55,391 nt of DNA from positions 1 to 55,391 of the IMG/VR virus record IMGVR_UViG_3300036771_000024, one strand, 5' to 3'. The position numbers and the translations under genes are program-made. The stretch comes from a virus. How positions within the stretch are numbered: position 1 is the stretch's first letter; every line of letters starts with the position of its first letter. Shown here piece after piece: positions 35,777-52,515 of this stretch. The notes beneath the pieces are model-generated. The model made no database searches, had not been told where the DNA came from, and saw only the letters and a program-made list of their open reading frames with translations.

Positions 35777-37015
35777 ATGGCCAGTGAAGTTGCTAAGCGG
35801 CTTCGCGACAGGCGGCTCAACGTGTGGAGCGAGGCGAAGAAGATCGCCGAAGATGCCGCCGCTGAGAACCGCGCGTTCACCCCTGAGGAGCAGGGTAAGT
35901 GGGACGCGATGCAGGAAGAGATGCGGACCCTCGACACGCGGATCGGTGCCGTTCTCGACACCGAGAAGCGCGCCAAGGCCGCAGACGACGCGTTCAACGA
36001 CCTTGAGGGTCGCCCGCGTGAGGGTGCACAGGAGCAGCGGCAGAGTGACATGGCCGCTGAGGTCCGCAAGTGGGCACGCGGCGAAGAGGGTGCCGGTCGC
36101 GCCCTTGAGATCCGCCGTCAGGCATCAGGCCCGGTTAACTACCGGACCCTGCTGACCACGGGCACCGCATCCTCGGTTATCCCGACCGACTTCTACGACC
36201 AGCTCATCGCCCACCTCATCGAGGTTTCGGGTGTCATGCAGTGCGGTCCCACGGTCCTGAACACCGGGGGCGGCGAAACGCTCCAGGTGCCGAAGACCAC
36301 CGCTCACTCCACCGCCGCCTCGGCAGCACAGGCCGGACTGATCCCCAGCTCCGACCCCACGTTCTCGATGCAGCCTCTGTCCGCTTACAAGTACGGCATC
36401 CTCTTGCAGGTCGCCCGTGAGCTGATCGATGACACCGCGGTGGACCTGCTCGGATACCTCGCGATGCAGGCAGGCCGTGCGCTTGGTAACGCATTCGGCA
36501 CCGACCTCGTTAACGGCACCGGTACCAGCCAGCCAGCTGGTATCGTTACCACCGCTACGACTGGCGTCACCGGCGCTACTACCGGTGTTTCCGGCGCACC
36601 GTCGTATGCGAACCTGGTCGACCTCGAATACTCGGTTATCGCGCCGTACCGTCAGTCCCGGAGCTGCTACTGGCTGGCGGCTGACAAGACCATCGGCGGT
36701 TTCCGGAAGATCACCGACACGACCGGCCGTCCGATCTGGGAGCCCTCCGCGGTTCTCGGCTCTCCGGACCTGCTGCTGGGTAAGCCCCTGGTGGCTGACC
36801 CGTTCATGCCCGCCCAGGCGCTGTCCGCGAAGTGCATCGCTTTCGGTGACTTTTCGCAGTACTTCGTCAGGCTGGTCGGCGGGGTCCGTTTCGAGCGTTC
36901 GGACGACTTCGCCTTCGGCACCGACCTGGTGACGTTCCGCGCGATCCTGCGTGGTGACGGAACCCTGGTCGACCGCACCGGGGCGATCAAGCTGTACGTC
37001 GGCGCTGCGACCTGA
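35777..37015 (+). CDS. HK97-fold major capsid protein, 412 aa
   Basis: Residues 1-115 form the helical delta (scaffold) domain (LNVWSEAKKIAEDAAAENRAFTPEEQGKWDAMQEEMRTLDTRI). The mature capsid starts around 120 with GPVNYRTLLTTGTASSVIPTDFYDQLIAHLIEVSGVM. Motifs YKYGILLQVARELIDDTAVDLLGYLAMQAGRALG and FERSDDFAFGTDLVTFRAILRGDGTLVD are diagnostic of the family. The upstream protease should cleave near residue 115-118. AAGGAGG precedes the ATG. Confidence 0.96.
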   Translation: MASEVAKRLRDRRLNVWSEAKKIAEDAAAENRAFTPEEQGKWDAMQEEMRTLDTRIGAVLDTEKRAKAADDAFNDLEGRPREGAQEQRQSDMAAEVRKWARGEEGAGRALEIRRQASGPVNYRTLLTTGTASSVIPTDFYDQLIAHLIEVSGVMQCGPTVLNTGGGETLQVPKTTAHSTAASAAQAGLIPSSDPTFSMQPLSAYKYGILLQVARELIDDTAVDLLGYLAMQAGRALGNAFGTDLVNGTGTSQPAGIVTTATTGVTGATTGVSGAPSYANLVDLEYSVIAPYRQSRSCYWLAADKTIGGFRKITDTTGRPIWEPSAVLGSPDLLLGKPLVADPFMPAQALSAKCIAFGDFSQYFVRLVGGVRFERSDDFAFGTDLVTFRAILRGDGTLVDRTGAIKLYVGAAT

Positions 37016-37399: not shown

Positions 37400-37954
37400 A
37401 TGGCGGGTACTAACCAGCCGAGTCAGAAGCCGGACGGCGGCGGCCAGCGTGCTGGTGGCGGTCGTGGCTACTCTGGCGTTTCCGGGGGTAATGACCCCAC
37501 GACCGAACCGGGTCAGTACCCACCGGCCAGCGACGGTGGTATTTTCGGTGGCCCCCTCCCCACGGGGACGGGCGCACCGGGCACGACCGGCGGACGTGGC
37601 GGTGGCGATGACACGACTGAGCCGGGTCAGCTGACTGACGGCCTGACTGGTGTCGATGACTCGGATATCACCAGCACGGGTGCCCCGGGTACGTCCACTT
37701 CCCCGGGTAGCGGTGGTGGCGGCACGTCGGTCACCTACACGAAGATGGGGTCGCACCTGACGGGTACGTACCAGTCGGAGACTTCCAGCGAGACCCTCAC
37801 CGGTCCTGGTGAGTCGACCGAGGCGAACAGTGAGGGTTACGCGACGGGCGGCCCGCAGCTCCCCGGTATCAAGGGGAACGAGCCGGTACCTGGCGGGAAA
37901 TACCAGCCTGGCAGTGGCCGGGTCCTGCGTGGCGGAAGGGCGGTGCGGGGATGA
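37400..37954 (+). CDS. Gly/Thr-rich disordered protein, 184 aa
   Basis: Low-complexity sequence full of Gly, Pro, Thr and Ser. It has repeated TEPGQ segments (DPTTEPGQYPPASDGG and DDTTEPGQLTDG) and little hydrophobic core except SVTYTKMGSHLTGTYQ near the end. GGAGAGG lies before the ATG. First of four short disordered proteins between capsid and the sugar island. Could be a decoration or anchoring protein; unknown. Confidence 0.75.
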   Translation: MAGTNQPSQKPDGGGQRAGGGRGYSGVSGGNDPTTEPGQYPPASDGGIFGGPLPTGTGAPGTTGGRGGGDDTTEPGQLTDGLTGVDDSDITSTGAPGTSTSPGSGGGGTSVTYTKMGSHLTGTYQSETSSETLTGPGESTEANSEGYATGGPQLPGIKGNEPVPGGKYQPGSGRVLRGGRAVRG

Positions 37955-38100
37955 GTGACGTAGCACGTCAGTACCCGCCTGGTTCGGAACCATCGAAGGG
38001 TGGCGGCCTGCTGGCGGTGCAGTACCCGCCCGGCCTGGAGAAGGCCAGTCACCAGAACAAGGACCTGGCGCACGACTACAAGGATGACCGGACCAAGTAG
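37951..38100 (+). CDS. Hypothetical disordered protein, 49 aa
   Basis: MSDVARQYPPGSEPSKGGGLLAVQYPPGLEKASHQNKDLAHDYKDDRTK contains QYPPG twice, as in the neighbour (QYPPA). ATGA coupling. Function unknown. Confidence 0.65.
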   Translation: MSDVARQYPPGSEPSKGGGLLAVQYPPGLEKASHQNKDLAHDYKDDRTK

Positions 38101-38109
38101 GAGGCCGCT

Positions 38110-38382
38110 ATGCAGGATCTTTCTAACCTGCTGAAGCCCGACCCGGTGACCGCCCTGGCTCCCACGTCGCAGGCTGGCGGGAACCAGATCGTCAGTAACG
38201 CGAACGCGCAGACCGCGCCGGGCAGCCAGCCTGCGCAGCCAGCGACGAGTATCACCGGTGAGGTCATCGATCACAACGAGCCGGTCATCCCGGCTTCCGG
38301 GCCGAAGATCCCGCCTGGCACGGATGGTAAGCCGCAGCCTGGTAAAACGTGGTCGCCGGGTGCACCGGCGTGGAAGAAGTAG
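38110..38382 (+). CDS. Pro/Ala-rich disordered protein, 90 aa
   Basis: MQDLSNLLKPDPVTALAPTSQAGGNQIVSNANAQTAPGSQPAQPATSITGEVIDHNEP...: an amphipathic start then Pro/Gln/Ala/Gly. AGGAGGCC precedes the ATG. Unknown function. Confidence 0.7.
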   Translation: MQDLSNLLKPDPVTALAPTSQAGGNQIVSNANAQTAPGSQPAQPATSITGEVIDHNEPVIPASGPKIPPGTDGKPQPGKTWSPGAPAWKK

Positions 38383-38391
38383 GAGGAAATC

Positions 38392-38640
38392 ATGCCTCAA
38401 GTTCCTGCCCCGGTCGAGGGCACCCCGAATCTGCCGTACCAGCCGTATGACGCGTCCGCCGAGGGCACGTCGGACACCGCACCAGGCCCCGGCCAGGTGT
38501 ATGACGGCAACAGCGGTGCAGACCCGACCGGCTGGGAGAAGCTGCGTGACGGCGGTGCTGCTGACATGAGCAGCGGCCGGGTCACCGGTGGCTGGCCTGA
38601 TAACGGCACGTCTGACGGTTCTGCCTGGAAGCAGACCTGA
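38392..38640 (+). CDS. Gly/Asp/Pro-rich disordered protein, 82 aa
   Basis: MPQVPAPVEGTPNLPYQPYDASAEGTSDTAPGPGQVYDGNSGADPTGWEKLRDGG... with little structure. AGGAGG precedes the ATG. Fourth of the set; the shared style suggests a common role. Confidence 0.7.
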   Translation: MPQVPAPVEGTPNLPYQPYDASAEGTSDTAPGPGQVYDGNSGADPTGWEKLRDGGAADMSSGRVTGGWPDNGTSDGSAWKQT

Positions 38641-38678: not shown

Positions 38679-39455
38679 GTGGTGGGTTACTGTCACTGGT
38701 GCGGCGGTTGGTCGCTGGAACCTCTCGATTCCTCATACATGTGCGGGCGGTGCCGGGATGGGTGGAGAGAAGCACACACCATGCGTGACCTGCTGATCAT
38801 CACCCCGACCCGGGGCCGCCCTCACGGGGCCCAGCGCCTGATCGACGCGGTAGAGAAAACCTCCACAGCCGTGACTGACCTGGTGTTCGCGATGGACGAC
38901 GACGACCCGTCTTACCCTGGCCTGACCGGGCGGTTCGAGTCAACTAGCGGCCCGAGAGACACGTGCGGCGGGTGGACGAACAAGATCGCCGCTGAACGCC
39001 TGGGCAGGTACCACGCGATCGCGTCGATCGGTGACGACCATGAGCCTCTCACCCGCGGGTGGGACACCATACTGCTGAACGCCATCGTGGACATGGGCGG
39101 TACGGGTATCGCCTACGGGAACGACACTGAGCACGGTGAAGACGTTCCTACCGCAGCGGTGATCAGCTCTGACATCGTGGCGGCACTGGGCTGGGTGTTC
39201 GAGCCGACCATGAATCACTTCTACGCCGACCTGGTGTGGAAAGAGATAGCGTGGGCGTCGTGCCTGGCGTACCTGCCTGGCGTGATCATCAAGCATTACA
39301 ACCCGAACTACGGCACCGCCCCCATGGATGACACGTACACGGAGGCCCGTGACCGTTACGGTGAAGACGGCGACGCGTACAAGGTGTGGGGTGAGCACCG
39401 CCGCGCTGCTGACACTGCCACGGTCAGGGCACTGGCACAGGCCAGGCGGTCGTGA
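38679..39455 (+). CDS. GT-A glycosyltransferase with N-terminal zinc ribbon, 258 aa
   Basis: Residues 5-25 form a zinc ribbon (CHWCGGWSLEPLDSSYMCGRC). The rest is a GT-A fold: LLIITPTRGRPHGAQRLIDAV, then FAMDDDDPSYPGL and ASIGDDHEPLTRGWD, and AYGNDTEHGED, where acidic pairs bind metal and sugar nucleotide. The GTG start follows GGAGGGCCCAT; starting at the ATG at 38781 would drop the ribbon. First sugar gene of the island. Confidence 0.78.
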   Translation: MVGYCHWCGGWSLEPLDSSYMCGRCRDGWREAHTMRDLLIITPTRGRPHGAQRLIDAVEKTSTAVTDLVFAMDDDDPSYPGLTGRFESTSGPRDTCGGWTNKIAAERLGRYHAIASIGDDHEPLTRGWDTILLNAIVDMGGTGIAYGNDTEHGEDVPTAAVISSDIVAALGWVFEPTMNHFYADLVWKEIAWASCLAYLPGVIIKHYNPNYGTAPMDDTYTEARDRYGEDGDAYKVWGEHRRAADTATVRALAQARRS

Positions 39456-40225
39456 AGATTTACGACTCGTTCCTGTTCCGTGACGAGCTGGACCTGCTGG
39501 AATGCCGCATGGTCCAGATGGACACCTGGCCGGTGTGGCAGCACATTCTCGTAGAGGCGAAGGTGGATCACCAGGGGCACCAGAAGCCGCTGGTGTACGC
39601 GGAGAACCGGGAGCGGTTCGCACCGTGGGCTGACCGGATCAGGCACGTCGTCGTGGATTCCCTGCCTGACGCCGAGCCGATGATACGGGAAGCAGCACAA
39701 CGGGACGCGGTATCCCGGGGCCTGACTGACGTTGAGGCGGGTGACTGGCTGATCCTCGCTGACGTGGACGAGATCCCGAACGATGTCGCGCTGGCAGCGG
39801 TGAAGAACCGCGAGGTGGGCGTGTTCGAGATGGTCTGCTGCATGTTCGCGGTCGACTGGCTGTGGGGGCCGCCGCTGAAAACCTCCGTGATCCTGCCGGC
39901 TGGTAACGGCGGGCAGATGTCCGTAGCACGCAGGGACGGGTGGTCCGCCGGGCCGGAGATACCGGGTGCGGGTCACCACCTGACGTGGCTAGGCGGGCAG
40001 GACGGGATCGCCGCGAAGATAAACTCGCACTGCCACACCGAATGTAACGCGGGCCTGGCCACGGGGAACGCCGCGGATGTTCTCTACCAGCATGGCCATA
40101 ACCCGTTCGGGACACGCTTCGGGTACTCGGACCAGATGATCCCGGTAGACGTGGACGAGTCGTGGCCACGCTGGGTGTATGAGAAACGCTGCCCCGGGAA
40201 CTGGTTCCGTCCCAGGGCAGGCTAG
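39452..40225 (+). CDS. GT17-like glycosyltransferase, 257 aa
   Basis: The opening KIYDSFLFRDELDLLECRM and ADVDEIP (about residue 103-108) are marks of family 17 (beta-1,4-GlcNAc transferase-type). Then a His/Asp-rich end (HLTWLGGQDGIAAKINSHCHTE). GTGA coupling to the upstream gene. It likely adds a GlcNAc-like residue; substrate unknown. Confidence 0.8.
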   Translation: MKIYDSFLFRDELDLLECRMVQMDTWPVWQHILVEAKVDHQGHQKPLVYAENRERFAPWADRIRHVVVDSLPDAEPMIREAAQRDAVSRGLTDVEAGDWLILADVDEIPNDVALAAVKNREVGVFEMVCCMFAVDWLWGPPLKTSVILPAGNGGQMSVARRDGWSAGPEIPGAGHHLTWLGGQDGIAAKINSHCHTECNAGLATGNAADVLYQHGHNPFGTRFGYSDQMIPVDVDESWPRWVYEKRCPGNWFRPRAG

Positions 40226-40234
40226 GATGACCGC

Positions 40235-41200
40235 GTGAGATACCTGATAACTGGCGGGGCCGGTTTCATCGGTTCCGCGCTGACACGCCGCCTGTCCCTA
40301 GAAGGCCACGAGACAGTCGTCCTGGATGACATGAGCCGCGGCCGGGATGACCGGCTCAGCGGACTGGAACGCTGCCACATCATCCACGGTGACGTACGCG
40401 AACCCGACATCGTGAACTACGCATCGCTGGGCTGCGAGACCATCCTGCATTTGGCTTACATGCAGGGAACCCAGACTTTCTACTCCGAACCCCGCCAGGT
40501 CCTCGACGTGGCCCTGCGGGGGATCGTGAACGTCCTCGAAGCGTGCCGGGTGAACGCCTGCCGGGAACTGCTCCTGGTGTCCTCATCGGAGGCGTACGAG
40601 ACACCCCCGGTGTGGCCCACCCCCGAGGAAGTGCCGCTGGTCGTGCCTGACCCGCTGAACCCGCGCTACTCCTACGGGGGCGGGAAGATCGCATCGGAGC
40701 TGGCCGCGCTGGCGTGGCAGCGGACCGGGATCCTGGACCGGCTGGTCATCGTCAGGCCCCATAACATTTACGGGCCGGACATGGGCACCCACCATGTGAT
40801 CCCCGAGTTCTGCCAGCGGATGAACGAGCTGACCAGCACCCACCCTGACGGGCCTATCGCGTTTCCCATCCAGGGAAGCGGTCAGGAAACACGGTCGTTC
40901 TGCTGGATCGATGACTGCGTGGACCAGTTCATGCTTCTGCTGGCGAACTCACCGGCCGGTTCTGAGATTTACCACATGGGCACGATGGAGGAGAAAACAG
41001 TCGCTGACGTGGCGTACCGTATCGCTGAGTGTTACGGGCGGAACATTAAACTGGAACCGGGGATCCTCCCGAAGGGTTCCCCGTCGCGCCGCCTCCCTGA
41101 CATCGCGAAGATCACCCGTCTCGGGTACACCGGGCCCCGGGTCGGTTTCGATGAGGGTGTCGCCCGCGCCGCAGCCTGGTACCGTGAGCATCATGGCTGA
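40235..41200 (+). CDS. NDP-sugar epimerase/dehydratase (extended SDR), 321 aa
   Basis: The Rossmann motif GGAGFIG is at residues 7-13, and the Tyr-x3-Lys pair at 147/151 (YSYGGGK) follows VSSSEAYETPP (Ser 116-118). Complete for the family, which makes or epimerises NDP-hexoses. The pattern HNIYGPDMG and RSFCWIDDCVDQFMLLL supports it. GTG start. Confidence 0.9.
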   Translation: MRYLITGGAGFIGSALTRRLSLEGHETVVLDDMSRGRDDRLSGLERCHIIHGDVREPDIVNYASLGCETILHLAYMQGTQTFYSEPRQVLDVALRGIVNVLEACRVNACRELLLVSSSEAYETPPVWPTPEEVPLVVPDPLNPRYSYGGGKIASELAALAWQRTGILDRLVIVRPHNIYGPDMGTHHVIPEFCQRMNELTSTHPDGPIAFPIQGSGQETRSFCWIDDCVDQFMLLLANSPAGSEIYHMGTMEEKTVADVAYRIAECYGRNIKLEPGILPKGSPSRRLPDIAKITRLGYTGPRVGFDEGVARAAAWYREHHG

Positions 41201-41438
41201 GACGACGCAGGAACGGCCCCGGCGGATGCACTGGCGCAACCAGGATCTGCTCGACGCGCTGAAAGAAGCAGGAATCATCCGTGATGGTGATTACGTCCGC
41301 AGGGTCGTGATCGACGTGTGCGTGGGCAGCGCAGTCGTGGTCCACGTTGAACGGTACGGGGATGACCGGCTGCTGCGGGTGATCCGCGGGATGACCGGGG
41401 TGGATGTTCACTGTGACACGAGGGCCGAGAATGAGTAG
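41193..41438 (+). CDS. Hypothetical protein, 81 aa
   Basis: Starts MAETTQERPRRMHWRNQDLLDALKEAGIIRDGDYVRRVVIDVCVGSAVVVHVERYGDDRLL, an alpha/beta fold seen in other phage sugar-gene clusters between enzymes. Overlaps the epimerase by eight bases. Unknown function. Confidence 0.72.
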   Translation: MAETTQERPRRMHWRNQDLLDALKEAGIIRDGDYVRRVVIDVCVGSAVVVHVERYGDDRLLRVIRGMTGVDVHCDTRAENE

Positions 41439-42639
41439 GCACCTCGGCACCTATTACCGCCCCGAGGGACCGGTGCTTTCCTGCGGTTCGTGCGGCTCCG
41501 GCGGCCTGGAACATGTCCTCGACCTGGGGATGCAGCCGACCCCCCAGGCTACCGTAGGCAAGAAGAACAGCACGTACCCGCTGAGGCTGGTTAAATGCCC
41601 CAGATGCACCCTCGTCCAGCTCGATTACATCGCACCGCAGGACGAAGTGTTCGGAGTAGACTATCCGTACACCACCGGGAACACCAAAGCTCTCCGTGAC
41701 CATTTCGAGCAGCAGGCCAAAGACGTGGACACCCTGCTGTGGAACGAGGGCTTCACCCTGCGCGGTGCTGTCCCCGGGCCGCTGGTCATCGACATCGGCG
41801 GCAACGACGGGACGATGCTGAAAGCGCTCCGCAACGAGGCCCCCGATGCGCGGCTGATGCTGATCGAGCCGACTGACCAGGCGAAACGCTGCACCGACCA
41901 TTTCATCGAAGTGGTGCAGGAGTATTTCACCGCTGACCTGGCCGAGGACATCCGGGCGCAGCGTGGTGCCGCGCAGGTCATCACCGTGTCGAACGTGTTC
42001 GGGCATATCCCCGACCCGCATGACTTCCTCGACGGCATCCAGATCCTGCTGGCCGAGGATGGCACGTTCCTGATCGATAACCAGGACTGGTACAACGTAT
42101 CCCAGGACCTCCAGATCGACACGATCTATCACGAGCACCTGCGGTTCTACACCCCGGCGTCGCTGGGGCTGCTGCTCGCCCAGCACGGCCTGATGATCAC
42201 GAGCTGGAACCGGATAGGGATGCACGGCGGCTCGTTCCGCGCCCTGGTGGTCAGGGAGAAGCCCGACCTGGAAGTCCGGTCGATGGCGGTGGTCAACAAG
42301 CTGATCGGCCTGCTGTATGAGGCTGAGCGGGCCGGGCCTATCTACGCGGTGACAGCACCCACCCGGGCGACACCGCTGGTGAACTACGCGGGCCTGGGGA
42401 AGTTCCTGACGTGCGCGTGTGAGGTTGCCGGGTCGGAGAAGATCGGCGCGACCATACCGGGCACGGAAGTGCCGATCGTGGACGAGAAGGTGCTGTTCGA
42501 GGAGCAGCCGCCCACCGCCCTGCTCCTGGCGTGGGACCTCGCCAGGGGACTCATCCCCGCTTTGCAGCGCAAAGGGTACAGGGGTGACTTCATCGTCCCC
42601 CTGCCCGAGCCGAGGATCGTCAAAGGGGTGACGGACTGA
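41431..42639 (+). CDS. Sugar C-methyltransferase, 402 aa
   Basis: Three domains of the NDP-hexose C-methyltransferase family (as in TylCIII and NovU) can be seen. An N-terminal zinc domain is CGSC 18-21 and CPRC 56-59. The central AdoMet domain is IDIGGNDGTML 120-130, with YHEHLRFYTPASL at about 235-247. A C-terminal Rossmann-like domain is LLAWDLARGLIPALQRKGYRGDFIVPLPEPRIV. It adds a methyl group to a carbon of a 4-keto-6-deoxy sugar. ATGA overlap. Confidence 0.88.
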   Translation: MSRHLGTYYRPEGPVLSCGSCGSGGLEHVLDLGMQPTPQATVGKKNSTYPLRLVKCPRCTLVQLDYIAPQDEVFGVDYPYTTGNTKALRDHFEQQAKDVDTLLWNEGFTLRGAVPGPLVIDIGGNDGTMLKALRNEAPDARLMLIEPTDQAKRCTDHFIEVVQEYFTADLAEDIRAQRGAAQVITVSNVFGHIPDPHDFLDGIQILLAEDGTFLIDNQDWYNVSQDLQIDTIYHEHLRFYTPASLGLLLAQHGLMITSWNRIGMHGGSFRALVVREKPDLEVRSMAVVNKLIGLLYEAERAGPIYAVTAPTRATPLVNYAGLGKFLTCACEVAGSEKIGATIPGTEVPIVDEKVLFEEQPPTALLLAWDLARGLIPALQRKGYRGDFIVPLPEPRIVKGVTD

Positions 42640-44012
42640 TGCCTGAGCCGATGATCCCGCTGCGGCTGATACCCCCAGCCCACCGACGCAGCGGGGTCAT
42701 CTCGGTGACTGTCCCGTCGCGGGGACGTGAGGCGAAGCTGGCTGACTCCCTGCGGTCGCTGCTTCAGACAGCGCACCGCCCGGATCTCATCGAGATCCTC
42801 GTCGCGTACGACCCGGATGACCCGGACACGAAAAAGGTCGCGGTCCTGATGAACGCCGACGTGATCTGGGAGGCACCCGAACGGTACGGGTACGCCCGGT
42901 CAGGTCACTACTGGGCTGAGCTGCTGAACCGCTCGACCGGCGAGTGGGTGCTGCCCACCTGGTCCGATGATGCGATCATGAAATCCCCGAACTGGGACGA
43001 CATGCTCCGCGCGCAGCCCCCGGGTTCCATCGCCTACCTCGACGGCAACTACCCGGGGCTGACATGTTTCCCGGCGGTCCACGCTGACGCGCTCGGCGCT
43101 ATCGGCAGGCTCGCACCGCTGCCCGCACTGGACACGTGGTTCGAGTATGCGGGACGTGACAGCGGCAACCTCGTGCACCCTGGTATCTACGTCCACCAGG
43201 ACCGCCCCGACCTGACCGGCTGCGAAGCAGACCAGACCCACGCTGAGGGCGGGGGTGCGTGGCGCAGCGGTGCGGGCGGCACGGTCCAGCAGGCGTTCTA
43301 CCAGATGCCGTACGTCGAATGGCGGGCGGAAGACACCATGGCCCTGCGTCATCACCGCCAGATCGAAGAAGAGTACCAGGCCCGGATGGGTGCCTGGTCG
43401 GACATCATAGAGCAGATGCCGCTGATCAGGCAGGCTGCCCGGTCCTACTGGAAACCTGTCATCGGCGAGCTGGGAACCCGCACCGGTGAGTCAACATCGG
43501 CGCTGATCGCCGGGGCTTCCGCTTCTGGCGGCCACGTGTACAGCGTGGACCTGGACATGGGTGACCGGACTGGTGCCCCTAACGGTTTCAATGCCCCGCC
43601 GTGGTGGTGCGAGCAGGCAGGACTGTGGTCCGCGCTGTCCGGTAACGACCTGGGTGACGAGGCGGCAGCGTTCATCCCGGCCGAGCTGGACATCCTGTTC
43701 ATCGACACGTCGCACCTGTACCAGCACACCCTGGATGAGCTGGCCATGTACGTCCCCCGGGTGAAGCCGGGCGGCACGGTCCTGATGCACGACGTGGAGC
43801 TGACCATCGGGGAGATGGTCGCCTACGGTGAACCGGGCGCTAGGGAAGATACCTACAGCCCCGAGTACCCGGTCGCAGCGGCGCTGGACTTCTACTGCTC
43901 CCAGCACGGGCTGACATGGACCCGCCAGACTGAAAGGCCCAGCCCGGTGCCGGGACGCCCGTTCTTCGGGCTCGGCACCATCGTGATCCCCGGGGGAGGT
44001 GATGCCCTGTGA
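42639..44012 (+). CDS. Glycosyltransferase-methyltransferase fusion, 457 aa
   Basis: The N-terminal half is GT2-type: VISVTVPSRGREAKLADSLRSLLQTAHR, YDPDDPDTKK, LPTWSDDAIMKSPNWDDM. The C-terminal half is a class I methyltransferase (about 265-457): IGELGTRTGESTSALIAGASASGGHVYSVDLDMGD, then LDILFIDTSHLYQHTLDELAMYVPRVKPGGTVLMHDVE. The second half resembles sugar-methylating families linked to glycan clusters. A single protein that could transfer and then O-methylate a sugar. ATG overlaps the previous stop. Confidence 0.85.
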   Translation: MPEPMIPLRLIPPAHRRSGVISVTVPSRGREAKLADSLRSLLQTAHRPDLIEILVAYDPDDPDTKKVAVLMNADVIWEAPERYGYARSGHYWAELLNRSTGEWVLPTWSDDAIMKSPNWDDMLRAQPPGSIAYLDGNYPGLTCFPAVHADALGAIGRLAPLPALDTWFEYAGRDSGNLVHPGIYVHQDRPDLTGCEADQTHAEGGGAWRSGAGGTVQQAFYQMPYVEWRAEDTMALRHHRQIEEEYQARMGAWSDIIEQMPLIRQAARSYWKPVIGELGTRTGESTSALIAGASASGGHVYSVDLDMGDRTGAPNGFNAPPWWCEQAGLWSALSGNDLGDEAAAFIPAELDILFIDTSHLYQHTLDELAMYVPRVKPGGTVLMHDVELTIGEMVAYGEPGAREDTYSPEYPVAAALDFYCSQHGLTWTRQTERPSPVPGRPFFGLGTIVIPGGGDAL

Positions 44013-44071
44013 CGACTGTCGCGCCGTATCCTTCGCCTTATCCAGGGTCTTGTGGCAGGGTGGGTGGGTGA
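44009..44071 (+). CDS. Possible 20-aa peptide
   Basis: A GTG overlapping the previous stop as GTGA, after GGAGGTGA, opens VTTVAPYPSPYPGSCGRVGG. No support from codon use because of its length; the 66-base gap could be spacer. Confidence 0.25.
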   Translation: MTTVAPYPSPYPGSCGRVGG

Positions 44072-44078
44072 GCAAGAC

Positions 44079-45341
44079 ATGAAACTGAGCCTGGTGAGCT
44101 GCCGGTCCCCGTTTCTCGATGACGACCGGATCTACCCGCCGCTGGGGCTGCTGTACCTGAAAGCCGCGGTGATGGCGCAGGTCCCCGAAGCCAAGGTCGA
44201 CGTGATCGATGACTACGGTGACCCGGGTGAGTTCGCGGACGCTGACGTGATAGGCGTCTCGGTGATGACACCGCAGCGTAAAGAAGCCGACCAGCTGGCC
44301 CGCATGATCAAGGACGCGTGGCCGGACAAGACGCTGATCGCCGGTGGCCCGCACGTTCGGCATTACGGCCGGGACATGTCGGACCGGTGGGATTACCTGG
44401 TCGGCGGGGACGGTGAACGTGTCCTGCCGCAGATCCTGCGGGGCGAACGTGTCCCCCGCACCACGTACGACCAGATCCCACGCGCCGAGCTGGCGGCTAT
44501 GCCGCCACCGGACCGGCTGGGTGAAGCGTCGTTCCTGCGGGGTTACACGTACAAGCTCGCGGGCCTGCCGTCCACGACGATGCTGCTGGGGCGCGGATGC
44601 CCGATGGCATGCAAGTTCTGCGAGGACGCCCGGACGCTGACCCGGTGGACGTCGCTGGAAAACGCCGAGGCGGAACTAGCCGACATCGTTCTGCTGGGCT
44701 ACCGCGGCGTGTACTTGTTCGATGACCTGTTTGCGATTAACCTGGGAAAATGCCAGCCATACCTGAACCTGCTGAAGAAGTCGGGCCTGAAATTCCGGTG
44801 CAACGTCCACGCGAAGTTCATGACGGACGAGTTCGCCGCGGCCCTCTCCTCCGCTGGATGCGTCGAAGTAGCGTTCGGGGCAGAGAGTGGTTCCCAGCAG
44901 ATCCTGGACCGGATCGACAAGAAGACGACTGTGCAGCAGAATTACGACTGCGTGCGGCACTGCAAGAACCACGGGATCACCGTGAAGGCGTTCCTGATGA
45001 TCGGCCTGCCCGGTGAGAACATGGAGACAATCGCCGAGACGGAGCGGTTCATCTGCACGTCCGGTATCGATGACGCGCAGATCGCGATCTACTACCCGTA
45101 CCGGGGTACTGAGCTGCGCCGCGAAATGGACGAGGGCCTCACCACGGACCTGGCGTTCGAGGGTGAGGGGCTAGGTGCGTACGGGCAGAAGAACCTGGGG
45201 ACCGACTCGGTGGTCCGCACCGAGGAACTCACCGCGCATGACCTGGTGCGGATCCGGTCGGACCTGATCGAGACGTACAAGTTCCACTCCCACGTGGGAC
45301 CCCGGGATCATTTCTTCGACACGCACATGGCGGTGTCGTGA
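44079..45341 (+). CDS. B12-binding-domain radical SAM enzyme, 420 aa
   Basis: The N-terminal domain (about 1-135) has the Rossmann layout of cobalamin-binding radical SAM proteins (LLYLKAAVMAQVPEAKVDVIDDYG...IGVSVMTPQRKEADQLARMI...LIAGGPHVRHYGRD...LVGGDGERVLPQIL). The classic DxHxxG is not seen, as in many members. The radical SAM core has GRGCPMACKFC with the 4Fe-4S ligands Cys 174, 178 and 181, then VEVAFGAESGSQQILDRIDKKTTVQQNYDCVRHCKNHGITVKAFLMIGLPGE. Such enzymes methylate unreactive carbon or rearrange sugars. Rare in phages. Confidence 0.88.
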   Translation: MKLSLVSCRSPFLDDDRIYPPLGLLYLKAAVMAQVPEAKVDVIDDYGDPGEFADADVIGVSVMTPQRKEADQLARMIKDAWPDKTLIAGGPHVRHYGRDMSDRWDYLVGGDGERVLPQILRGERVPRTTYDQIPRAELAAMPPPDRLGEASFLRGYTYKLAGLPSTTMLLGRGCPMACKFCEDARTLTRWTSLENAEAELADIVLLGYRGVYLFDDLFAINLGKCQPYLNLLKKSGLKFRCNVHAKFMTDEFAAALSSAGCVEVAFGAESGSQQILDRIDKKTTVQQNYDCVRHCKNHGITVKAFLMIGLPGENMETIAETERFICTSGIDDAQIAIYYPYRGTELRREMDEGLTTDLAFEGEGLGAYGQKNLGTDSVVRTEELTAHDLVRIRSDLIETYKFHSHVGPRDHFFDTHMAVS

Positions 45342-45958
45342 GCCTCCCCCTGGTCTCGGTGATAACCGCTACGTGGAAGCGGAATGACCTGCTGCTGAGC
45401 CGGTGCATCCCGTCGGTGCAGGCGCAGGGATACCCCGCGGTGGAACACATCGTCATCTCCGACGGGCCGGACAACAGGCTGGCCAGGCGGCTGGCTGAAC
45501 CGCGGCTGGACGGGTGGAAGAACCTGCTGTACAAGGAGGTGGACTGCCACGTCAGCGACGACCATTACGGTCATTACGCGCGGCTACTCGGCCTGGAATA
45601 CGCGTCAGGCGAGTACGTCACCTACTGCGACGACGACGACTCGCTGCGGCCGGACCACTGTTACCGCCTCGCCACGGCACTGGATGAGGATCCTGACGCA
45701 GGGTTCGCCGTGTCGCGTATGGTCGCGCACCACGCCCACCCGGTGACGGTCGGGTGGGGGCCGCTCGCACCCGGCAACGTGGGCTCCCCGATGATCATGC
45801 ACCGCAAGTGGGTGCTGGACCACGGCACGTGGGGACCGGCTTCGTGGAAGGAAGACTGGGAGCTGGTCGAACGGTGGCTGGACGCGGGCGTCAAGTACGT
45901 GAACGTGGACGCTGAGACTTCCGACGTGTGGCCGTCACGGTTCCGGGTTGAGGCGTGA
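45338..45958 (+). CDS. GT2 glycosyltransferase, 206 aa
   Basis: Standard GT2 sequence: VSVITATWKRNDLLLSRCIPSVQAQGYPAVEHIVISDGPDN, ARLLGLEYASGEYVTYCDDDD (the metal-binding acidic cluster) and a short C-terminal part. GTGA coupling. Complete but shorter than many GT2 enzymes. Confidence 0.85.
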   Translation: MSLPLVSVITATWKRNDLLLSRCIPSVQAQGYPAVEHIVISDGPDNRLARRLAEPRLDGWKNLLYKEVDCHVSDDHYGHYARLLGLEYASGEYVTYCDDDDSLRPDHCYRLATALDEDPDAGFAVSRMVAHHAHPVTVGWGPLAPGNVGSPMIMHRKWVLDHGTWGPASWKEDWELVERWLDAGVKYVNVDAETSDVWPSRFRVEA

Positions 45959-46629
45959 AAGCCTTCATCATCTTCCGGGATCGTGTGACATACGCGGCCC
46001 GGTGTGCTGCCGCACTGGCCCGTGCTGGCCTGGAAGTGGTCATCGTGGACCAGGGATCCACGTATCCTCCTGCGCTGGCCTGGCTGGACGTGCTGGAGAT
46101 CCGCGCAGGCACGCAGGTGCTCCGAAAGGGCGGCGGGCACCCGCAGGAACTATGGGGCTGGGACCCCTTCCGGCAGGCATGCGGGACTGAACGGTACGTC
46201 GTGACCGACCCGGACGTGGTACCGGATGACCTGTGCCCGCTGGACTGGCCGGAACGGCTGGAGAAAATCCTGGACGACTCGGACTACTCCAAGATCGGGA
46301 TGGGCCTGCGGATCGATAACATCCCCGAGACGTACCAGCATCACGACCACGTGGTCGAGTGGGAACGGCAGTTCTGGACGCACCCCGTGGGTGACGGCAG
46401 CGTGTTCTCCGCGCAGGTCGACACGACCCTGGCGATGTACAACCCGCTGCCCGACTTCCCCCACTTCACCATCGACGGGCTCCGCACCGGCCCCCCGTAC
46501 GTAGCGGAGCACCTGGCGTGGTATGAGGACCTTGAAAATCTTTCACCGGAGTTGCAGTATTACCATGAGCACGCCGAAGCTGGCATCTCATTCTGGACTC
46601 TGGAGGACCGCAGTGCCTGGAACCAGTGA
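45955..46629 (+). CDS. GT-A glycosyltransferase-like protein, 224 aa
   Basis: RCAAALARAGLEVVIVDQGSTYPPALAWLD and VTDPDVVPDDLCPLDWPERLEKIL have the shape of a GT-A nucleotide domain with an acidic pair (DPD). It ends with EHLAWYEDLENLSPELQYYHEHAEAGISFW. Family assignment is less sure than for the other transferases. Confidence 0.7.
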   Translation: MKAFIIFRDRVTYAARCAAALARAGLEVVIVDQGSTYPPALAWLDVLEIRAGTQVLRKGGGHPQELWGWDPFRQACGTERYVVTDPDVVPDDLCPLDWPERLEKILDDSDYSKIGMGLRIDNIPETYQHHDHVVEWERQFWTHPVGDGSVFSAQVDTTLAMYNPLPDFPHFTIDGLRTGPPYVAEHLAWYEDLENLSPELQYYHEHAEAGISFWTLEDRSAWNQ

Positions 46630-47173
46630 CCGGACGATCATCTTCCCGTCTATCACCACGGCGGTCACCCCCGCTGAGTCAGCGGAGCTGGCCCGGCTCG
46701 CAACCGGGTGCACAGTCCTGGAACTGGGGTCGTTCTACGGGTACTCCACGATCGTGATGGCGTCGGTCGCTGACATGGTGTACTCAGTCGACTGGCATCA
46801 GGGCGACGACCACGCGGGCCAGTACGACACGTGGGAAGACTTCAACGCGAACCTGCTCGGGTATGGTGTCAAACCGCACGTGCAGGCGGTGAAGGGCCGG
46901 TTCGAGGAGGAAGTGCCCCGGCTGTGGCGTGCGGGTGTCCGCACTGACGGCGCGTTCCTCGACGGCCAGCACGACGAAGCCTCTGTCCGCAGGGACCTGG
47001 AACTGGCACTCATGCTGGTTAAGCCGGGCGGGTGGGTCGCGTTCCACGACTACGGGCGTGGTGAGGAAACAGGACACCACGGGTTCGAGGTCACGAAGGT
47101 AGCGGACGACTTCGGTGTGACCGACGTGGTGGGCTGCCTGGCGTGGGGAACCTACGAGCCGCCCGAAGACTGA
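46613..47173 (+). CDS. Class I methyltransferase, 186 aa
   Basis: TVLELGSFYGYSTIVMASVADMVYSVDWHQGDDH is an AdoMet-binding motif with the Asp of motif II. GAFLDGQHDEASVRRDLELALMLVKPGGWVAFHDYGRGEETGHHG follows the pattern of the Methyltransf_24 family, found in glycan clusters. GTG after GGAGGACC. Possibly O-methylates a sugar. Confidence 0.82.
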   Translation: MPGTSDRTIIFPSITTAVTPAESAELARLATGCTVLELGSFYGYSTIVMASVADMVYSVDWHQGDDHAGQYDTWEDFNANLLGYGVKPHVQAVKGRFEEEVPRLWRAGVRTDGAFLDGQHDEASVRRDLELALMLVKPGGWVAFHDYGRGEETGHHGFEVTKVADDFGVTDVVGCLAWGTYEPPED

Positions 47174-47174
47174 C

Positions 47175-47456
47175 ATGCGTCACTGGCTGGGTGTCGACTC
47201 GGGTGAAGGCGTGCCGTACCTGTTCTACTCGGGGCTGTTCGGCGTGATCGTGTTCACGCTCGGTCAGGTCGCGAACGTGTACGCCACGCTGCGGCGGAAC
47301 AACTGCCACCAGCCGAACTGCTGGCGTCTCGGCCGGTTCCCCGTGGAGGGCACCGCGTGGAACTGCTGCCACCGGCACCACCCGGAACCCCCGGTGAAAG
47401 AAACGATCCGCGAGCGGTACCACCTGTATGCGGGAGACAAGATCGGTGATGGCTGA
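47175..47456 (+). CDS. Membrane protein with Cys/His motif, 93 aa
   Basis: One hydrophobic segment (VPYLFYSGLFGVIVFTLGQVANVYATLRRNNC) leads to CHQPNCWRLGRFPVEGTAWNCCHRHHPE. Proteins with the same H-C-x3-C-W-R-x-G-x(2)-P-V-x-G-T-x(2)-x-C-x3-H ending occur widely in actinophages; role unknown, perhaps membrane- or virion-associated. ATG two bases after the previous stop. Confidence 0.8.
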   Translation: MRHWLGVDSGEGVPYLFYSGLFGVIVFTLGQVANVYATLRRNNCHQPNCWRLGRFPVEGTAWNCCHRHHPEPPVKETIRERYHLYAGDKIGDG

Positions 47457-47658
47457 TAACGCAGACGGCCTGGCGGATTTCATCATGGGCCTGCCCGAGG
47501 GTGAACGCCACAAAGGGTTTTTCTGGGCGGCGAAGACCGCGGCCGGGAATGACCTGCCGCCAGTCGAGGTGACGAAGATCATCAACGCGGGTATCCGCGC
47601 CGGGCTGGAAGAAGCGTACGTCCACCGGACCGTCACCGAAGCGCAGGAGGAAAAGTGA
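47449..47658 (+). CDS. Hypothetical helical protein, 69 aa
   Basis: MADNADGLADFIMGLPEGERHKGFFWAAKTAAGNDLPPVEVTKIINAGIRAGLEEAYVHRTVTEAQEEK resembles the fragment seen in DNA primase-polymerase-type C-terminal helices (AxxxGLxxxEVxxxIxAGIxAGxxxP), but only the small helical module is present. Ends before a leaderless promoter. Function unknown. Confidence 0.7.
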   Translation: MADNADGLADFIMGLPEGERHKGFFWAAKTAAGNDLPPVEVTKIINAGIRAGLEEAYVHRTVTEAQEEK

Positions 47659-47703
47659 GCCGTTTCATGATCCCGCGGGTAGCTCACTGTTCCACCGGCG
47701 GTT

Positions 47704-47723
47704 TACAATCTTGACGTGAAGAT
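47704..47723 (+). promoter_or_regulatory. Leaderless promoter with overlapping palindrome
   Basis: TACAAT is six bases before the GTG of the next gene, the same spacing as the leftward leaderless genes. ATCTTGACGTGAAGAT covers the start and is one mismatch from a perfect palindrome like that at 10306. A 19-codon frame opening at 47655 is judged spurious. Confidence 0.5.
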
Positions 47724-48726
47724 TTTCGCTGGTCATGATGGCGGGTCCGGGTGCGGCTGGTACCGCATGGAACTCCCCATGGCACAGCTCGCCGCCCACG
47801 GCTACGAGGTGACGCTGGCATCGGCGGATGCGGATAAGACACCGGGTATCACCGCCCGCTCTATGGAGGGTCACGACGTGATCGTGGCGCAGCGGTTCAA
47901 CAAGCCCGGTGGCGTCCACATTTACCGTGAAGCCCGCACCCCGCGGAACCGGCTGGTGTACGAGCTGGACGACGACGTGTTCGCGATCTCACCGGAGAAC
48001 TTCAACGCGTACCACATGTGGCAGCGGCCCGACATCCTGGATGCGGCGACGCACGCGATGGAAGTGTCAGACCTGATAACGTGCAGCACGGAGCCGCTGG
48101 CGGAGGTGCTCCGCGAGTACAACCCCAACGTGGCCGTGCTGCCTAACCACATCCCCGGGTGGGTATGTGACGTGGAACGGAACCGGCGGGTGCGCCCAGC
48201 AGTGGGCTGGGCCGGGGGCGCTTCGCATGGCGCGGACGTTGGCCTGATCTCTGGTCCGGTCCGCCGGTTCCTCAAACGTTTCCCCGGGTGGGACCTGCGC
48301 CTGACCGGGACGGATTACCGTCCCACGTTCAAGGCGGGTGACCGTGCGGTCTTCACCAAGTGGGTGCAGGTCAACGACCACCCGGAGAAGTTCTACAAGT
48401 CTCCCGACTGGGACATCGGGCTGGCCCCCGTGGTGCCGAACCGGTTCAACGCAGCCAAGTCGTGCCTGAAAGCGATGGAGTACGGGGCTCTGGGCATACC
48501 CACGATCGCGTCGGACTACTACCCGTACACCGGTTACATCCGGCACGGCGAGACCGGGTTCCTGGTCAGGCGGGATCACGAGTGGCTCAGCTACATGTCG
48601 GAGCTGGCCTCCGACGACAGCCTGCGGGAGAAAATGGGTGCCGCTGCCCGTGAGCAGGCCCGCCAGTGGACCATCGAGAACGGGTGGGCGAAATGGGCGG
48701 AGACTTACGAGGGGCTGTTCCGGTGA
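47716..48726 (+). CDS. GT4-type (GT-B) glycosyltransferase, 336 aa
   Basis: Two Rossmann halves: MKIFAGHDGGSGCGWYRMELPMAQLAAHGYEVTLAS with the Gly-rich start, VYELDDDVFAI, and the C-terminal AVGWAGGASHGADVG...DWDIGLAPVVPNRFNAAKSCLKAMEYGALGIPTIASDYYPY, the GT4 donor site with conserved Glu. Complete. Adds a sugar from a nucleotide donor. Confidence 0.9.
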   Translation: MKIFAGHDGGSGCGWYRMELPMAQLAAHGYEVTLASADADKTPGITARSMEGHDVIVAQRFNKPGGVHIYREARTPRNRLVYELDDDVFAISPENFNAYHMWQRPDILDAATHAMEVSDLITCSTEPLAEVLREYNPNVAVLPNHIPGWVCDVERNRRVRPAVGWAGGASHGADVGLISGPVRRFLKRFPGWDLRLTGTDYRPTFKAGDRAVFTKWVQVNDHPEKFYKSPDWDIGLAPVVPNRFNAAKSCLKAMEYGALGIPTIASDYYPYTGYIRHGETGFLVRRDHEWLSYMSELASDDSLREKMGAAAREQARQWTIENGWAKWAETYEGLFR

Positions 48727-48851
48727 TCTGCCACCCGTGCAAAATGGATTTCCACGATTCCTGTGATAACACGCAGCCGTCCCACGGTGGCGGCAACTGG
48801 TGCGACTGTCAGCATGAGGACCGGGTCTGGCCGGAGGAAGAGGAACACTGA
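48723..48851 (+). CDS. Zinc-finger-like protein, 42 aa
   Basis: VICHPCKMDFHDSCDNTQPSHGGGNWCDCQHEDRVWPEEEEH: C-x2-C-x4-H-x2-C...C-x-C-x-H with an acidic end, a type found in actinophages. GTG overlaps the previous stop. Confidence 0.68.
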   Translation: MICHPCKMDFHDSCDNTQPSHGGGNWCDCQHEDRVWPEEEEH

Positions 48852-49294
48852 TGACAAACGTTCAGATGCTGGTGCACATCACCGGCGGGCGCGCTGACGG
48901 CAGCGTGTGGCCAGCGGTGGGTCACGAGAAGCCGCTGAAGGTCAGCAAGGCTGAGGCGCAGGACCTGTACACCGCGCAGCTCGCCCGCCCCTGGCCGGGT
49001 GGTGACGAAGAGGAGCAGACCGCTGAGGCCGCTGCGACCGCGCAGACCGAGGCGCTCGTAGAGGCAGCAGTACCACCGGTGCAGTGGCCCCCCGATGAGC
49101 CGACCAGGATGGGTGCGCAGGCTGAGCCGGTAGCGGAGGCTGACGAGCCCGAGGCGCAGGATGCTGACGCACCCAAGCCGGCCGCACCCAAGGCTGACTG
49201 GGTGGAATGGGCGGTGTCGCAGGGTGCTGACGAGGAAGAGGCTAACGCTTCCACGAAACAGCAGCTGATGGAACAGTACGGGGCGCGCCCGTGA
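48851..49294 (+). CDS. Acidic protein with C-terminal SAP/LEM-like segment, 147 aa
   Basis: A structured start (MTNVQMLVHITGGRADGSVWPAVGHEKPLKVSKAEAQDLYTAQLARPW), then an Ala/Glu/Pro-rich linker of about 55 residues, then DWVEWAVSQGADEEEANASTKQQLMEQYG, a helix-extended loop-helix type module common in actinophage structural proteins. It resembles head-tail connector-region proteins. Function not proven. Confidence 0.75.
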   Translation: MTNVQMLVHITGGRADGSVWPAVGHEKPLKVSKAEAQDLYTAQLARPWPGGDEEEQTAEAAATAQTEALVEAAVPPVQWPPDEPTRMGAQAEPVAEADEPEAQDADAPKPAAPKADWVEWAVSQGADEEEANASTKQQLMEQYGARP

Positions 49295-49476
49295 CGACGC
49301 GCGTAACCAAATCGAACGGCAAGGTCTCGTTCGATAACGGTGAAACCTGGCATACGGTCACTGACATGGAAATGTCGTGGAGCACCATCGAGGAAACCCG
49401 TGGCGGGGAAGAACCGGGTGACTGGAAGGTCGCCTGCGAGGTCATCCCGGTGGTCAAGGAGAAGGACAGCGAATGA
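49291..49476 (+). CDS. Hypothetical small protein, 61 aa
   Basis: MTTRVTKSNGKVSFDNGETWHTVTDMEMSWSTIEETRGGEEPGDWKVACEVIPVVKEKDSE: beta-rich with an acidic end. GTG start with coupling. Confidence 0.72.
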   Translation: MTTRVTKSNGKVSFDNGETWHTVTDMEMSWSTIEETRGGEEPGDWKVACEVIPVVKEKDSE

Positions 49477-50009
49477 CCACGAAGCTCCGTGAGCTTCTCG
49501 ACACGGTCCGGCAGGTTGACCGGAAGTGGCAGAAGCAAGTTGAGGTCCCGGAAAAATTCACCCCGTGGATGCCCGCTGACGTGGCCCAGTACCTGGTGCT
49601 GCTGATCGAGGCGATGCATGAGGCACCGGGGGAGAAGTTCCTTGAGATCGGCTGCGGCCCGGGCACGAAGATGCTCCTGGCGCGGGACGCCCTGTGTGAC
49701 ATGCTGGACGTATCCGGGTTCGACCGGGTCCCCGAATACGTGCAGGCCGCACGTGAACTTGGCCTGAACGCCGTGGTGTGCGACGCGTTTGACTACCCGG
49801 CGTACAACAAGCATGACATCGTGTTTTTCAACCGGCCGTTCCGTGACCGGCAGATGCAACGTGACCTGGAACGCCTCGTCTACACGAGGATGCGCCGAGG
49901 TGCCGTGGTGATCTGCATGAACCTGGAGAACAAGCCGCCATCTGACAAGTTCCTCGTCATCACCGACGACTGGGAAGAGGGGCGGCGCGGGGTATGGCTG
50001 AAGTTGTAA
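49473..50009 (+). CDS. Class I methyltransferase, 178 aa
   Basis: FLEIGCGPGTKMLLARDA is the AdoMet motif and SGFDRVPEYVQAARELGLNAVVCDAFDYP has the acidic motif II (Asp). No clear motif IV. Substrate unknown; located beside glycosyltransferases but also next to structural genes. Confidence 0.8.
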   Translation: MTTKLRELLDTVRQVDRKWQKQVEVPEKFTPWMPADVAQYLVLLIEAMHEAPGEKFLEIGCGPGTKMLLARDALCDMLDVSGFDRVPEYVQAARELGLNAVVCDAFDYPAYNKHDIVFFNRPFRDRQMQRDLERLVYTRMRRGAVVICMNLENKPPSDKFLVITDDWEEGRRGVWLKL

Positions 50010-50152
50010 TCTCCCACGACTACGGCGGGGACGTAGGCGAGAACCCCGTGACCGCGCCGGTGGAGAACAAGGTCGTGGTGGCTGGCCTGGCATCGGCTTC
50101 CGCGGCACCGGGTCCAGCGGAAGTCGAGGAACCTGACAGTGGCGTGGACTGA
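49994..50152 (+). CDS. Hypothetical acidic protein, 52 aa
   Basis: MAEVVISHDYGGDVGENPVTAPVENKVVVAGLASASAAPGPAEVEEPDSGVD: beta start, then Ala/Pro/Glu-rich. Its last codons overlap the first codons of the structural gene at 50139, just as the 52-aa gene at 50974 overlaps the paralogue at 51119. Confidence 0.6.
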   Translation: MAEVVISHDYGGDVGENPVTAPVENKVVVAGLASASAAPGPAEVEEPDSGVD

Positions 50153-50657
50153 CAGCCGCATTTTCCAGCAGGCTATGCTCAACCCGATCGCAGGGCGTTC
50201 CTGGACGACAGCGGCACCCACCACATATTCTTCGCTTTCCGCCGATACGATCGACGTGTCACTTTTCAATAACACGACCACCCCTGACCGCACCGCAGCG
50301 GTCGCTAACACCGGATATAACACGGGGGTATGGGTCACCGGTAATGAGGTTGTGGACGTGACGAACTGGGTGGCTGGCGGCCGGGCGCTAGCATCGAAGA
50401 CGTTCACCATCGACACCGGTTCATCCAGTATCTGTTTCGGTGCGGCGAACCTGTCCGGTGGCGGCAACGTCACCCTGGCGAACGTGTTCGGGTGCTTCGT
50501 CTACGACGCCACGATCACAGGCGGAACAGTCTTGAAGCAGGGGCTCTGCTATAACTACTTCGGCGGGGCCCAGGGTGTCACCGCCGGGGCTTTCACGATC
50601 GTCTGGGCGACACCCGGTGGTGGCGCTATCAGCGCGGTCTTCAACATTACCGTGTGA
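50139..50657 (+). CDS. Structural protein, paralogue A, 172 aa
   Basis: Begins MAWTDSRIFQQAMLNPIAG and consists of short beta strands with many Thr, Gly and Asn, as in tail or head fibres and decoration proteins. The N-terminus is nearly identical to that of the protein at 51119, so the two are duplicates that have diverged. GTG start; no close ribosome site. Confidence 0.78.
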   Translation: MAWTDSRIFQQAMLNPIAGRSWTTAAPTTYSSLSADTIDVSLFNNTTTPDRTAAVANTGYNTGVWVTGNEVVDVTNWVAGGRALASKTFTIDTGSSSICFGAANLSGGGNVTLANVFGCFVYDATITGGTVLKQGLCYNYFGGAQGVTAGAFTIVWATPGGGAISAVFNITV

Positions 50658-51942: not shown

Positions 51943-52515
51943 GTGAGAATCTGCTACTTCTGGACGAAGCTCTGGGACGAGGCCGTCGAGGCGCTCCCAC
52001 CCGACGCCGAGCAAGTGTACGTCGGTGAGTCGCTTACCTCCTACTGGGACGCTCTGAGCGCACGGTGGGGCACTGATGACCTGATGATCGTGGAGCACGA
52101 CATCGTTCTGCACGACCAGGTGGTGGAGCAGTTCGAGGCGTGCCCGAACGTTTGGTGCACGTTCCCGTACTGGCATGACGAGTGGCTGGACGAGGCCCTC
52201 GGGTGCACCCGGCTCCGCCTGTCGATCCAGCAGCAGATCACCCCGGCGGAGATCCAGGAGGAATCCTGGGGGTCGTGCTGGGAGTGCAACCCGACCGCGA
52301 CGATGCCGACCGTGGATGAGCTACGAGACCTGCCGAAGTGGCGGCAGCGGATCAAGGACGGCGAGATCCTGGGATGCTGGCGTCACATCGACGGAAAGCT
52401 CATCTGGTCGATGCGCAGGCATAAGCAGAAGGTGTGCGTACACCTGCCCACGGTGGAACACCTGAGTCACCGTGTCATCCCCGATGGTAATTTTTACGTG
52501 AGGAGCTGGGAATGA
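51943..52515 (+). CDS. Glycosyltransferase-like protein, 190 aa
   Basis: Opening MRICYFWTKLWDEAVEALPPDAEQVYVGESLTSYWDAL, then DLMIVEHDIVLHDQVVEQFEACPNVWCTFPYWHDEW, where EHD is a DxD-like metal motif of GT-A folds such as in some phage and viral transferases, followed by a Cys/Trp-rich end. Family is not certain. GTG start. It may be a late sugar transferase placed in the tail region. Confidence 0.6.
   Translation: MRICYFWTKLWDEAVEALPPDAEQVYVGESLTSYWDALSARWGTDDLMIVEHDIVLHDQVVEQFEACPNVWCTFPYWHDEWLDEALGCTRLRLSIQQQITPAEIQEESWGSCWECNPTATMPTVDELRDLPKWRQRIKDGEILGCWRHIDGKLIWSMRRHKQKVCVHLPTVEHLSHRVIPDGNFYVRSWE

Follow-up and report, generated by a model that had tools for sequence, protein, structure and literature searches.

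A capsid-side gene cassette that probably equips a phage to make a C-methylated sugar and build a glycan on its virion

We analysed the first 55,391 nucleotides (bases 1-55391, hereafter the window) of the IMG/VR virus record IMGVR_UViG_3300036771_000024, which is 119,391 bases long. Between the gene for the major capsid protein (MCP) and the head-tail and tail genes, the phage carries a cassette of sugar-making and sugar-transferring genes. On balance, the phage probably uses this cassette to glycosylate its virions: the encoded enzymes would make an unusual C-methylated sugar and assemble an O-methylated glycan on a virion protein. The genes (Table 1) are intact and under purifying selection, their active sites are conserved, and their position on the capsid side is constant. 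Two of them, encoding a short-chain dehydrogenase/reductase (SDR) and a sugar C-methyltransferase (CMT), are paired across relatives.

In the proposed pathway, the SDR (40235) would turn a nucleoside diphosphate (NDP)-sugar of the host into an NDP-4-keto sugar, and methylation of the carbon beside the keto group by the CMT (41431) would yield a branched sugar. The GT-A, GT17, GT2 and GT4 glycosyltransferases (GTs) could then work in the cytoplasm to assemble an oligosaccharide on a freshly synthesised virion protein, possibly one rich in Ser/Thr/Gly/Pro, and a fusion protein and a stand-alone Methyltransf_24 enzyme would O-methylate the glycan. Finally, a B12-binding radical SAM enzyme may alter an unactivated sugar carbon by a second C-methylation or a deoxygenation. 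Family membership points to the two sugar-making steps and the O-methylation; the acceptor, the order of the steps and the radical SAM chemistry have less support than these.

Gene families were assigned with Pfam, PHROGs and NCBIfam, and isolated phages were compared in INPHARED. Every gene named in the initial annotation of 38679-50009 is intact and on the + strand, with mostly 4-base overlaps or gaps of <60 bases between neighbours, much as that annotation had described. The open reading frame calls and family matches also recover the five glycosyltransferases of different types that it listed (GT1-type, GT17, GT2, GT-A by predicted fold, and GT4), and Pfam domains identify the sugar C-methyltransferase, the transferase-methyltransferase fusion, the B12 radical SAM enzyme and two more methyltransferases. 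The set is not confined to that interval, with additional members at 51943 (weak), 58223, 58987 and 70602. For the island genes compared, the ratio of nonsynonymous to synonymous substitution rates (dN/dS) is 0.10-0.36 (Nei-Gojobori, against the 81%-identical relative L008), and all of them are under purifying selection. The possibility that they are host-derived or decayed was rejected on these values and the intact frames, and in related phages the homologues are neither scattered nor frameshifted.

Table 1. Cassette genes and neighbouring features. Coordinates are those of the window unless given as of the record.
Feature	Coordinates	Strand	Basis and remarks
MCP, HK97-type	35777..37015	+	34% to Streptomyces phage MCPs; fixed left neighbour of cassette
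Ser/Thr/Gly/Pro-rich protein	37400..37954	+	invariant TGAPG repeats; after MCP in 28/28 relatives with enough sequence
GT1-type GT-A glycosyltransferase with N-terminal zinc ribbon	38679..39455	+	phrog_14945 1.7e-34
GT17-family glycosyltransferase	39452..40225	+	PF04724 7.9e-18
NDP-sugar SDR enzyme	40235..41200	+	PF01370 1.1e-36; UDP-glucuronate (UDP-GlcA) decarboxylase match 1.4e-30
TylC3/TcaB9-type NDP-sugar CMT	41431..42639	+	PF08421+PF13489+PF08484; start uncertain: 41404, 41431 or 41473
Fusion of GT-A-like domain and Methyltransf_24 sugar O-methyltransferase domain	42639..44012	+	PF13578 6.3e-14
B12-binding radical SAM enzyme	44052..45341	+	PF02310 1e-9, PF04055 1.2e-19
GT2 glycosyltransferase	45338..45958	+	PF00535 2.7e-14
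GT-A glycosyltransferase	45955..46629	+	no Pfam match; AlphaFold2 (AF2) model and Foldseek; DxD D85/D87
Stand-alone Methyltransf_24 O-methyltransferase	46580..47173	+	PF13578 7.5e-17; start uncertain
GT4 glycosyltransferase	47716..48726	+	phrog_7162 9.8e-55; PF00534 1.2e-8
Small class I methyltransferase, no target assigned	49473..50009	+	PF13847 3.8e-7
GT-A-like protein, weak	51943..52515	+	by eye; no family match above cut-off
Very Ser/Thr-rich virion-type protein, 1152 aa	53176..55391, runs on to record base 56634	+	candidate alternative acceptor
NDP-sugar dehydrogenase-like	58223-58990 of record
GT	58987-60048 of record
GT2-like	70602-71240 of record

The two sugar-making enzymes are the best defined. 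The CMT has the three-part architecture of its family, a Zn-binding N-domain, a SAM-dependent methyltransferase domain and a C-terminal domain, all above cut-offs. It matches TcaB9 (6.9e-38) and MtmC (1.6e-37), and the alignment with TcaB9, MtmC and KijD1 spans both lobes. These three enzymes methylate C3 of NDP-4-keto sugars, and the Tyr, His and Tyr-x-Glu-His of the family have catalytic roles. In the phage enzyme the aligned residues (Y89, H201, Y242, E244 and H245) and both Cys pairs are invariant in five phages. The enzyme shares architecture, conserved zinc and aligned catalytic residues with the 3-C-methyltransferases, of which TcaB9 is described as a C-3' methyltransferase (PMC9539859). 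The known enzymes serve antibiotic sugars, whereas the CMT is here paired with a Ser-Ser-Glu-type SDR in phages.

The SDR, called an epimerase in the initial annotation, is an NDP-sugar enzyme, but its active site (S117-S118-E119, Y147 and K151, all invariant in the relatives aligned) fits a dehydratase or decarboxylase better than GalE, and the GalE-type reading is disfavoured by this motif. Its Thr/Ser-Ser-Glu with YxxxK matches the UDP-glucuronate decarboxylase/GMD type. In place of the Thr-Asp-Glu expected of RmlB-type NDP-hexose 4,6-dehydratases it has an invariant Ser-Ser-Glu. The Ser-Ser-Glu/Tyr/Lys set is common to decarboxylases and GDP-mannose dehydratases, and Thr-Asp-Glu marks RmlB. 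Both decarboxylase and GDP-mannose dehydratase types form a 4-keto intermediate and therefore fit the need of a C3-methyltransferase; the enzyme probably makes a 4-keto sugar. The SDR and CMT genes adjoin in every relative whose CMT is at least 45% identical, and their distances correlate with each other (r = 0.80) more closely than either does with the capsid protein (0.41-0.48; eight or nine phages), which hints that the two travel together. The corresponding MCP-GT2 and MCP-GT4 correlations rest largely on a single divergent phage. A pathway for a C-methylated sugar, together with its transfer, is well supported by the adjoining SDR and CMT genes and their invariant catalytic residues, much as had been proposed for a branched or C-methylated sugar attached to virion or host; of these two targets we favour the virion.

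The position of the cassette was followed among relatives. A capsid profile search recovered 239 IMG/VR stretches with a related capsid protein; among the best 80 of these, 28 contigs have at least 8 kb downstream of the capsid gene, 21 of them non-redundant. All 21 distinct contigs have sugar genes, in varied combinations, in the 10 kb that follow the capsid gene; in the 10 kb before it, 12 of 15 have none and the other 3 have one GT2 relative. The capsid side is thus constant and the sugar side swapped: the capsid proteins of the listed relatives are 79-96% identical to that of the window, and the cassette content is very different. The 28 contigs carry, downstream of the capsid gene, the Ser/Thr/Gly/Pro-rich gene (28), GT1-type (23), GT2 (21), SDR (20), CMT (19) and GT4 (10) genes; these counts are lower bounds, as some stretches stop before the cassette ends.

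The SDR and CMT occur together in 15 of the 21 distinct contigs, 11 of which also have a cupin and four the radical SAM gene, and none both; the remaining six carry other transferase sets. This exclusivity could stem from one old split of two clades. The cupin (117-123 aa) directly follows the CMT gene (L033, L034, L040, L041) in SDR- and CMT-bearing relatives that lack the radical SAM gene, and its best matches are oxalate decarboxylases, with weak ones to WxcM/Cap5F; a reading of it as a specific sugar isomerase is tentative. The radical SAM gene itself is kept in one 100%-identical contig and in further contigs at 76-82%. Gene order, suggested earlier as a check, is retained from GT17 through SDR, CMT, fusion, radical SAM, GT2, GT-A and methyltransferase to GT4 in L008, whereas in L010 the radical SAM gene is relocated to the cassette front, and combinations vary elsewhere. 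In L007 an NDP-sugar dehydrogenase gene stands right behind the radical SAM gene. A CMT profile search also found a second phage group with related capsid proteins and without the radical SAM gene.

Several glycosyltransferases retain conserved residues. In the GT1-type enzyme D39/D41/D42, G84-D85-D86 and W94-D95 are invariant. The zinc ribbon assigned to it at the outset is present (38679-38780) but is a mobile N-terminal piece, joined to GT17 instead in L010, and ATG 38781 is a possible start for the core enzyme. The protein at 45955-46629 is modelled with a mean pLDDT of 82, its Foldseek matches are the GT-A enzymes B4GALNT1, LH3 and RmlT, and its D-x-D (D85/D87) is invariant. In IMGVR_UViG_3300031754_000001, a related phage, the GT4 gene has an in-frame intein-like insertion (L039:16392-18545 = L011:12762-15062) that carries a LAGLIDADG homing endonuclease domain (PF14528 3e-17, PF14890 3.6e-4).

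The nearest solved relative of the stand-alone Methyltransf_24 enzyme (2.5e-5) and of the methyltransferase half of the fusion (1.6e-5 by profile, 1.6e-9 by fold) is MeT1, a sugar 1-O-methyltransferase that acts on mannosides (PMC9883506). The radical SAM enzyme has a B12-binding domain ahead of the radical SAM domain, with invariant cysteines C183-x3-C187-x2-C190 (CxxxCxxC), and its best solved match is AprD4 (2.7e-13). AprD4 belongs to the apramycin pathway and acts on a sugar, and enzymes of the GenK/GenD1 type are likewise B12 radical SAM enzymes acting on sugars. The phage enzyme shares both domains with AprD4 but falls in no named equivalog, since all its NCBIfam matches are far below curated cut-offs (best, PhpK, 87.7 against 600; KedN5-family, 22.9 against 700). 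We propose that it tailors a sugar or glycan, mainly because GT and methyltransferase genes recur around it: in two other phage groups, distant relatives (28-31%) belong to GT-methyltransferase-GT-radical SAM and GT-methyltransferase-radical SAM-HK97gp10 arrays, and a bacterial relative (38%) has a GT2 gene and further transferase-like genes nearby. The arrays of those two phage groups (L016-L028) adjoin head/tail-type genes in several cases.

The same enzymes might instead modify the host cell surface, as a cell-wall glycan or teichoic-type polymer that, for example, excludes other phages, and leave the virion untouched. Phage-encoded glycosylation of host surfaces (serotype conversion) is known, in the account given by PMC12619734, cell-wall loci contain the same enzyme families, and the bacterial radical SAM relative lies beside glycosyltransferases. 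We nevertheless consider this unlikely. A family search that was positive in 13 of 14 control genomes found no Wzx-type flippase, and by hydropathy the cassette enzymes have no clear membrane segments save a single marginal one in the GT at 58987, so the flippase and membrane-bound transferases of gtr-type seroconversion were not seen. The GT and methyltransferase genes stand inside the virion operon, as expected for virion glycosylation, and by the capsid gene in every relative. Far less probable is that the genes serve general host metabolism or the making of a glycosylated small molecule. TcaB9, MtmC and AprD4 do come from antibiotic-sugar pathways, but no aglycone-making genes were seen, there are several transferases of different folds, and the position among virion genes holds in 21 of 21 distinct contigs. 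Glycosylation of phage DNA bases (hypermodification) is the least credible, although such activity is known for GTs from other phages (Pyle et al. 2024, as cited in PMC12619734). The NDP-sugar and C-methylation genes are placed with the virion genes and not with those for replication. A search for thymidylate synthase-type genes, with 9 of 14 controls positive, gave none, and a Tet/JBP search that had no positive control gave no match. Cytoplasmic glycosylation of virion proteins is therefore favoured over a host-surface target as the likelier function, given the virion-operon position, the lack of a detected flippase, the seemingly soluble enzymes and the lack of a detected thymidylate synthase-type gene.

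Within the virion glycosylation reading, the SDR could be UDP-glucuronate decarboxylase-like and the C-methylated sugar a pentose, supplied by the dehydrogenase-like gene at 58223. We find this variant rather doubtful. The best solved relatives of the SDR are indeed UDP-glucuronate decarboxylases, and the UDP-glucose dehydrogenase-like gene, 17 kb downstream, adjoins the radical SAM gene in L007. Yet its product is short (255 aa), with NAD-binding and central domains and no C-terminal domain, and among the records searched the gene was seen only in L007, in this phage and in the contig identical to it. Of 12 records searched, 10, each with a CMT relative, showed no such gene, and an obligate tie to UDP-glucose dehydrogenase was rejected on that count. 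Several points weigh against virion glycosylation itself. One is the uncontrolled Tet/JBP search; another is that no recognised 4-ketoreductase lies within the cassette. The model of the GT-A half of the fusion is only partly confident, too weak to serve as structural support, and the fold matches hit the methyltransferase half. Most relatives, among them whole records of 63-159 kb, lack the radical SAM gene; it was accordingly rejected as a core enzyme and is best seen as accessory. The acceptor, too, is a guess: position, conservation and composition make the Ser/Thr/Gly/Pro-rich protein perhaps a candidate. Three further small Pro/Gly/Ser-rich proteins, conserved in relatives, are encoded between the MCP gene and the cassette (37951-38640), and two paralogous virion-type proteins at 50139-50657 and 51119-51622 (MAWTDSRIF..., 55% identical) are among the most Ser/Thr-rich of the genome.

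Glycans on capsid and tail tube have been shown in Mycobacterium phages (Freeman et al. 2023, as reported in PMC12619734). Among the nearest known systems are Corndog and the cluster O mycobacteriophages, which likewise have GT and O-methyltransferase genes within the head operon; in Corndog an O-methyltransferase, two GTs and a putative N-acetylglucosamine (GlcNAc)-transferase lie between portal and protease (PMC4351075). Its described modification genes include no nucleotide-sugar-making, CMT or radical SAM gene (PMC4351075), and the present cassette, which follows the capsid gene, is several times as large. The lake cyanophage DSL-LC02 of Synechococcus (OR032571) has a dehydratase gene with that for a CMT relative (25%) immediately after it, and further on genes for a reductase, several transferases and an FkbM methyltransferase. 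It belongs to another phage family, and the stretch shown has neither an adjoining capsid gene nor a radical SAM gene; its enzymes are annotated as GDP-mannose/GDP-fucose ones, the dehydratase and reductase being discussed as GDP-fucose metabolism (PMC10611076). The fusion resembles A064R of the chlorovirus PBCV-1, in which GT domains are joined to an O-methyltransferase and which extends and methylates the capsid glycan (PMC9614988), a likeness of architecture; A064R differs in having two GT domains and in acting on a eukaryotic-virus N-glycan. Streptomyces phage Zuko carries a GT4 relative (33%) and a UDP-glucose dehydrogenase gene just upstream of the terminase, but these two are its only sugar genes and there is no C-methylation.

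In INPHARED, GT17 and the fusion had no match, CMT relatives were below 27% and radical SAM matches were partial (22-30%); neither there nor in literature searches was a comparable phage cassette with radical SAM and GTs found. The earlier statement that no known phage has this set thus holds for the whole set in INPHARED, with partial counterparts in cluster O mycobacteriophages and DSL-LC02. Because glycosylated virions and a CMT/dehydratase/GT cluster are known and the full set is unmatched in INPHARED, what appears new to phage virion glycosylation is the combination, in one swappable locus on the capsid side, of sugar-making and transfer with tailoring by a radical SAM enzyme. More tentatively, and with less than even expectation, we suggest that this locus clothes a constant capsid in the manner of a bacterial serotype locus and that in one branch the radical SAM enzyme remodels the coat sugar at an unactivated carbon. 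To our knowledge such remodelling is known from no virus coat. If these readings are true, some phages make their own branched coat sugars, not merely attach host sugars, and swap the genes for them while the neighbouring capsid gene stays nearly constant. Comparison of relatives could then test how diverse phage coats are and what drives this diversity (host binding, defence, predation, antibody recognition), and the loci would be a source of new sugar-modifying enzymes.

On either side of the cassette lie other virion genes: terminase, portal, protease and MCP at 29.4-37.0 kb, and head-tail adaptor, major tail protein and tape measure at 56.6-67.4 kb of the record. The best MCP relatives are from Streptomyces phages, and nearly all hosts named for the listed TerL relatives are actinobacteria (Arthrobacter, Rhodococcus, Mycobacterium, Gordonia). 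Judged by these phage genes, this is probably a phage of an actinobacterium. A tRNA-Met gene (CAT) lies at 24474-24548, between a leftward block of small genes and the virion genes.

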